Shown here piece after piece: positions 8,090-19,095 of a DNA stretch of 35,506 bases. The stretch spans positions 21,001 through 56,506 of the forward strand of contig PLPI01000132.1 of assembly GCA_003159495.1 (NCBI GenBank), read 5' to 3'. The first letter of the stretch is position 1. Each line of letters begins with the position of its first letter. The notes under the pieces were generated by a model. It saw nothing but the letters and a program-made list of their open reading frames with translations, did no database searches and was not told the DNA's origin. Origin of the DNA: a candidate division FCPU426 bacterium (GTDB lineage Bacteria > Oederibacteriota > PGYV01 > Palsa-1178). A program made the translations under genes and the position numbers.

Positions 8090-8119
8090 AATTTGTCTGC
8101 TTGTGTTTTGCTCCAGCAA

Positions 8120-8141
8120 GGGCGGACTTATATGTCCGCCC
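8120..8141. repeat. REP-like hairpin of repeat copy 1
   Basis: Perfect 8-bp stem, GGGCGGAC/GTCCGCCC, with a 6-base loop TTATAT. The equivalent hairpin in copy 2 has GGGCCGCC/GGCGGCCC with loop TTACAT, so stem changes are compensated on both sides. Confidence 0.75.
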
Positions 8142-8269
8142 GCGCCATGTGCCCTGCTTGCCGGTCAGGCGGAACTTTTTTACGGCCGCCGTCCAGGTTT
8201 TCAGTTGAGGAGGATTACACAGCAAATAAAGTGTAATTAAAGTTTTACCTTTGCTTAACTGACATAGTA

Positions 8270-8446
8270 GGTGATGTCGAAAAACCTGTTGCACTGTTTA
8301 TCCCGTGTATATGGCATTTTTCTCGGATTGCCGCCCGGTATAATAATGACGGACTCTTGCAAGGCCATCAGATGAGCGGCGCAAGGCCGATAAAAATGCC
8401 ATATACACGGGATCTGGCAGCATTGGCGGGGTTTTTCGACAGCACC
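8270..8446. mobile_element. 177-bp MITE-like palindromic insertion with 5-bp target duplication
   Basis: The ends are inverted: GGTGATGTCGAAAAACC at 8270-8286 and its complement at 8430-8446 with few mismatches (first 16 bases differ at one). A second inverted pair of 27 bases, 26 matching, sits at 8300-8326 and 8387-8413. TAGTA directly flanks both ends (8265-8269 and 8447-8451). The homologous repeat at 19045-19049 has a single TATTA and runs through uninterrupted, so it preserves the pre-insertion state. Too short to encode a transposase; presumably moved in trans by an element elsewhere in the genome. Superfamily not assigned. Confidence 0.85.
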
Positions 8447-8517
8447 TAGTAGTTATTGTTGGACGCCTGGCCGTAAAAAAAACACCGCCCACCCGGACAA
8501 TTTATTTTGATATTGGT

Positions 8518-18894: not shown

Positions 18895-19095
18895 TGTTCT
18901 CGTAGGGGCCGCCTTACATGGCGGCCCGCGCACGGCTGCCGTTCGGACAGGGCTTTTTTTACGTCTGTCGCCCGAAGTTTTTGCCCGAGGAGGATTACAG
19001 GGTAAGAACAGCGCTATCAAAGTTTTACCTTAGCTTGACTGACATATTAGTTATTGTTGGGCGCCTGGCCGTAAAAAAAGCCCCGTCCGTACGGC
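18895..19095. repeat. Structured intergenic repeat, copy 2 (uninterrupted)
   Basis: Same organisation as 8115-8497: hairpin at 18906-18927, left arm CGGACAGGGCTTTTTTTACG (18944-18963), core with GAGGAGGATTACA and AAAGTTTTACCTT, right arm CGTAAAAAAAGCCCCGTCCG (19070-19089). The two arms pair along about 19 bases with one mismatch, forming a stem around about 106 bases. The outer arms match each other within this copy better than either matches copy 1. TATTA at 19045-19049 marks where copy 1 carries its insertion. No ORF of note; the short frame MSVK(L/Q)R on the - strand lacks a ribosome binding site. Confidence 0.75.
18906..18927. repeat. REP-like hairpin of repeat copy 2
   Basis: Perfect 8-bp stem GGGCCGCC/GGCGGCCC with 6-base loop TTACAT, corresponding to the hairpin at 8120-8141 with compensated stem changes. 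Confidence 0.75.

Follow-up and report, generated by a model that had tools for sequence, protein, structure and literature searches.

The window, that is, the whole stretch of 35,506 nucleotides analysed in this work, includes two intergenic spacers (8115-8497 and 18902-19095) whose stem bases differ between the spacers but remain paired within each of them. This raises the question of whether selection acts on their structure or whether they derive from a mobile element, the two possibilities put forward in an earlier note. The spacers do align, in two blocks (E = 8.8e-11 and 1.1e-9), and each harbors the 8-bp hairpin and the longer outer arms with a T/A core described in that note. However, the pair does not represent a two-copy repeat. 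The spacer 8115-8497 is made up of three repeats, i.e., a GTAG-type REP hairpin, a copy of an element hereinafter referred to as family A, and a family B MITE embedded within family A; the spacer 18902-19095 contains a REP and a family A copy in the same arrangement and lacks the insertion (Table 1). Thus, the first spacer holds one copy of the repeat, as proposed, with a 177-bp MITE that had been overlooked, and the 8-bp hairpin, rather than being part of the aligned repeat, is a separate dispersed one, found at many sites without the rest. The flanking genes code for a two-component kinase and a receiver, PAP2, NHL, a glycosyltransferase, and a CIA30 protein, and none of those around the two spacers offers an explanation for the repeats. 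According to these data, both spacers are mosaics organised around family A, a hairpin element that is non-coding and specific to this lineage.

Table 1. Coordinates (window numbering) of the repeats and of their parts in the two spacers.
Feature	Position	Strand	Details
GTAG-type REP hairpin	8116..8144	+	stem GGGCGGAC/GTCCGCCC; degenerate tag, GCAA
Arms of the 8-bp hairpin, first spacer	8120-8127/8134-8141		
Family A copy 1, interrupted	8160..8496	+	left part 8160-8269, right part 8447/8452-8496
Family A copy 1, left arm with T6 tract	8160..8181	+	pairs with 8475-8496
Family A copy 1, part of the core	8239..8269	+	AAAGTTTTACC...ACTGACATAGTA
Left TAGTA target duplication	8265..8269		
Family B MITE within family A copy 1	8270..8446	+	177 bp; conserved centre 8315-8398
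Family B 17-bp inverted repeats	8270-8286 and 8430-8446		GGTGMTGTCGAAAAACC
Right TAGTA target duplication	8447..8451		
Family A copy 1, right part	8452..8496	+	TTATTGTTGGACG core, inner helix, A-tract, right arm
GTAG-type REP hairpin, GTAG tag intact	18902..18928	+	GTAGGGGCCGCC..GGCGGCCCG
Family A copy 2, uninterrupted	18938..19095	+	158.9 bits
Family A copy 2, T/A-cored outer arms	18938-18963/19070-19095		
Family A copy 2, conserved core	19019..19063	+	

When family B was excised in silico from copy 1, ...ACTGACATAGTAGTTATTGTTGGACG... remained, which matches the family A consensus; in the same way, the consensus ...CTGACATAGTAGTTATTGTTGGACG... was recovered when the flanks of the insertion were fused with a single TAGTA between them. 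The left half of this copy was also retrieved by the covariance model (C96:29152, 68.6 bits).

Family B resembles the bacterial MITEs, of which RUP, NEMIS, ERIC, and Nezha are listed in PMC3733652, in its length of 177 bp, its 17-bp inverted repeats, its 5-bp duplication, the lack of any ORF, and the ability to form a hairpin. Its terminal inverted repeat, GGTRCTGTCGRAAAACC, was found in at least 57 plus at least 62 places, versus 1 plus 0 in the control, and the 5-bp target duplication emerged at the inverted-repeat ends with z = 11.3 (for example, TAGGG, AAATA, ATGGG, and TTGTG). On the basis of these clear ends and of the 5-bp target duplication, family B is a MITE of the DDE type; since it possesses terminal repeats and target duplications, the alternative of a mobile element holds for this inserted sequence only, and for family A either alternative may apply. 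No copy bearing an ORF was present among the matches listed, and family B was absent among the other genomes searched. Nitrospira was considered as a carrier of family B and rejected, as the matches to a 20-base motif sit in another inverted-repeat element and could be due to chance; the element in question (TGTCCGACAT..ATGTCGGACA, loci L121-L123, L127, and L129) has the 20-mer CAGATGAGCGGCGCAAGGCC in common with family B. An IMG/VR match to the same motif was likewise discarded, being unrelated sequence without a family B element, and four other matches lie in unrelated sequence as well.

A third group, family C (loci L173-L183, e.g., G000:C52:11903-12009), combines the ends of family B, arms like those of family A (GCGGGCGGGACTTTTTTAAG), and a centre, CGCCCGATATTATAAGGGTTTTAGCGGCGC, related to that of family B. 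In four loci (L096, L087, L106, and L098) an extra hairpin, TTCGACAGGCTCAGGATGCTGAGTTTATCGAAG, is inserted in the family B loops, and a hairpin related to it adjoins some family A copies. Two-base N gaps were observed inside the hairpins of some family B copies (e.g., L188-L192), apparently assembly breaks at palindromes.

Family A is a non-coding hairpin element of about 158 bp, present at about 28 sites in the genome. A BLAST search with the second spacer retrieved more than 25 copies, a list independent of the covariance model; the latter, built on 25 copies and hence trained on the family A copies themselves, yielded 26 strong full copies (E < 1e-30), plus the split copy, a deletion variant, and fragments. 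The weaker matches of the model include family C. The further copies anticipated in the earlier note were, therefore, found in the genome itself, and none in its relatives, as 0 of the 44 members of the phylum searched carry family A. The exact core pattern had no match in the GTDB-220 genomes or in IMG/VR; the search of Rfam 15 gave no match above the gathering score and nothing credible at relaxed thresholds, and no matches came from the plasmid and phage searches. At the end of contig C96 and the start of C71 (L013 and L014), one family A copy with its left flank is followed by two different right flanks, one of which runs into a REP; this suggests that the population varies at this site or that a repeat affected the assembly.

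Concerning the structure, one family A copy folds with z = -7.75 relative to dinucleotide shuffles, and RNAalifold predicted 26 pairs in two helices, the second of which is short (CGTCCRA/TTGGACG). Thirteen of the 26 pairs changed on both sides and 93.8% of the cells are paired, values that none of 500 shuffles reached for either measure; doubly changed cells amounted to 38, compared with 8.5 in the shuffles, and slid controls gave at most 6 doubly changed pairs versus the 13 of the alignment. Hence, the covariation proposed from two sequences goes beyond both kinds of control. The resulting design consists of GC-rich covarying outer arms, an invariant T6/A6 stem tract, and a conserved loop core. 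As for the two core motifs thought to be conserved, AAGTTTTACC is so throughout the family, while GAGGAGGATTACA falls in the variable part. The usual outer arms are GCCGTGCG...CGCACGGC; in some copies the arm is swapped wholesale and yet paired (e.g., ACATGACAG...CTGTCATGT in L056 and GCCTTAGC...GCTAAGGC in L010).

Within-copy compensation by itself does not demonstrate selection, as the same pattern arises when the template is switched between the arms of a hairpin (PMC8794818). By parsimony on the copy tree, the terminal branches carry about 2.1 changes per column overall, but 0 in the 12 columns of T6/A6, 0.57 per column in the inner helix, and 0.45 in core1; these parts have changed little on terminal branches, so individual copies are constrained. 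Such constraint speaks against family A as a fossil family. The complementarity of the arms may be kept by selection for a hairpin, by template-switch correction between the arms, or by both.

The orientation of copies and genes was counted over 41 large stretches (about 745 kb) of an assembly in 145 contigs. For family A it was assigned from the better-scoring strand together with the core patterns; the iterative HMM mixed the strands because family A is palindromic. GC skew was positive on the + strand of family A in every one of the 21 pieces of family A-bearing contigs, and every copy whose orientation could be tested is on the leading, G-rich strand; the one seemingly lagging copy is a single site (L059/L085) matched on both strands. 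The other repeats gave 37 leading versus 1 lagging for family B and 28 versus 3 for the GTAG REPs, and the called genes (hexamer-based calls) 595 versus 67, about 90% being on the G-rich strand. Over these 41 stretches, about 90% of leading-strand genes represents an unusually strong strand bias in its own right.

Under a gene-like bias alone, the orientation of 26 out of 26 family A copies would have p about 0.065, and that of families A, B, and C pooled (68 out of 69 leading) p about 0.006. Moreover, at nine family A sites at least one of the two adjacent genes is on the lagging strand, and these copies are still leading; so are all six A, B, or C copies with a lagging downstream neighbour. 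Replication predicts direction better than genes do, a point that 145 contigs do not cleanly prove; replication and transcription can be separated only in part, because 90% of the genes are on the leading strand. The same confounding applies to the likeness with the replication-oriented transposons Tn7/TnsE and IS200/IS605 (reviewed in PMC5371812), which, like family A, are fixed in direction with respect to fork movement; family A differs from them in having no transposase gene.

The REPs near family A are short imperfect palindromes with GTAG at one end, the tag of the copy at 8116 being degenerate. They are dispersed (31 tagged copies in about 745 kb) and lie outside called genes in 21 of 22 cases. 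A REP was found within 90 bp upstream of 9 out of 25 family A copies and downstream of 6 out of 25, with about 0.2 expected per side; in all, 13 distinct family A copies have a nearby GTAG REP, two of them on both sides, and all are co-oriented. The flanking hairpins thus resemble the GTAG REP super-family and the BIME mosaics (PMC3733652, PMC2817692), being GTAG-tagged imperfect palindromes, intergenic, dispersed, and with compensated stems, and the position of family A beside them in a mosaic is itself a BIME-like trait. In contrast, family A is about 158 bp long, has a conserved core, and bears no GTAG tag, and the REPs on either side of it share one direction and are not inverted. Nor does it correspond to a REPIN, in which two inverted REPs form one hairpin: its arms have no GTAG tag, and the neighbouring REPs are co-oriented.

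In PMC3733652, GTAG REPs are presented as miniature elements with a link to Y1 transposases. The genome has five Y1 transposase genes (loci L115-L119), and the scan of these five loci revealed no family A, family B, or GTAG-REP motif; unlike the described systems, no RAYT gene flanked by GTAG repeats was found there, and no mobiliser of family A was identified. Two of these Y1 genes (L115 and L118, in G000:C26 and C134) are located between 34- and 39-bp inverted repeats of their own and resemble the TIRtrons of PMC3733652.

The explanation that we favour, tentatively, is that family A is a REP-associated mosaic repeat which would have spread in a replication-polar manner and whose hairpin would be maintained at the DNA or RNA level. 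The spread along the chromosome may have followed a REP/IS200-like mechanism, replication-polar and probably based on a single-strand hairpin; with such a mechanism the target would not be duplicated and all copies would face the same way with respect to the fork. The hairpin, in DNA or RNA, is presumably maintained at present, as individual old copies retain the tracts, the helix, and the core. Family B inserted later in the core of copy 1, giving the 5-bp target duplication.

In most accounts, the interspersed repeats of bacteria are either short palindromes or the decayed ends of transposons. Family A is a previously unlisted, lineage-specific variant of them, with an unusual combination of covarying arms, a core conserved in each copy, no detectable duplication, same-direction REPs, and a fixed replication direction. 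If this direction reflects the fork and not the genes, the family would allow one to test, in nature, how non-coding hairpins spread at forks and whether some of them acquire a use. It also calls for caution, since "compensatory changes" in bacterial spacers may have sources other than selection on RNA, namely mobile elements or template switching.

Somewhat unlikely, in our opinion, is that family A is a structured RNA (a 3'/5' UTR element or a small RNA) whose transcription runs in the direction of the genes, most of which are on the leading strand, so that covariation and core conservation would reflect an RNA function. The covariation, the fold z-score, and the core conserved in individual copies agree with this, as does the location of 16 out of 25 copies between co-directional genes, given that REPs are often transcribed (PMC3733652). 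However, Rfam gave no match, and the gene context is variable, with 6 divergent copies, 1 convergent, and 1 between two lagging genes; a 5'-leader or riboswitch was rejected, some copies being upstream of a lagging-strand gene. Furthermore, the helix 1 mismatches on the + strand are A-C in 25 cases and G-T in 4 (counts that are phylogenetically non-independent), the opposite of what selection on a plus-strand RNA predicts. Such an excess is not expected from a plus-strand RNA or from a simple DNA hairpin; it is only a hint of wobble tolerated on the bottom strand, as many mismatches are common by descent.

We regard as unlikely that family A is an old DDE-transposase MITE with eroded target duplications and only by chance in the company of REPs, even though it has inverted terminal arms, no ORF, and dispersed intergenic copies, and families B and C are such MITEs in the same genome. 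The scan that detects the 5-bp duplication of family B found nothing above noise for family A, whose ends, unlike those of bacterial MITEs, covary rather than stay fixed; in L056 and L010 the outermost arms are replaced and still paired, whereas a transposase needs conserved ends. The constraint on the core in terminal branches would also be unexpected for dead copies. In a further reading, which we hold to be quite unlikely, family A would be a host-maintained, replication-polar element, kept in one direction at about 28 sites and acting on the lagging-strand template or as a bottom-strand RNA, perhaps for fork or chromosome-organisation signalling, and not a mobile-element leftover.

It is improbable that the arm covariation is purely mutational, with quasi-palindrome template switching homogenising the arms and no selection on structure. 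The multi-base paired arm replacements in L056, L018, and L026 are the footprint described in PMC8794818, but template switching leaves unexplained the zero changes in T6/A6, the few changes in the core, and the dispersal. Finally, that the copies are attC-like integron recombination sites is highly improbable: they do have a hairpin with covarying arms, a uniform orientation, and a near-invariant GTTGGAC fitting the attC core GTTRRRY, but the second core box is absent (the partner is GTCCRAAG or similar, not RYYYAAC), the arms reach about 25 bp past the box, the copies lie 1-25 kb apart with no cassette spacing, and an integron integrase is missing: the tyrosine recombinases, four in number, score at most 88 bits versus the 265-bit cut-off of TIGR02249, and two of them look like XerC and XerD.

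A divergent family A-like element, "D" (L218 8201-8366, in G000:C107), lies about 70 bp downstream of a gene resembling xerD, and the adjacent recombinase was rejected as an integron integrase because of its resemblance to XerD. The arms of this element are different and yet paired, and co-oriented GTAG REPs are present on both sides of it.
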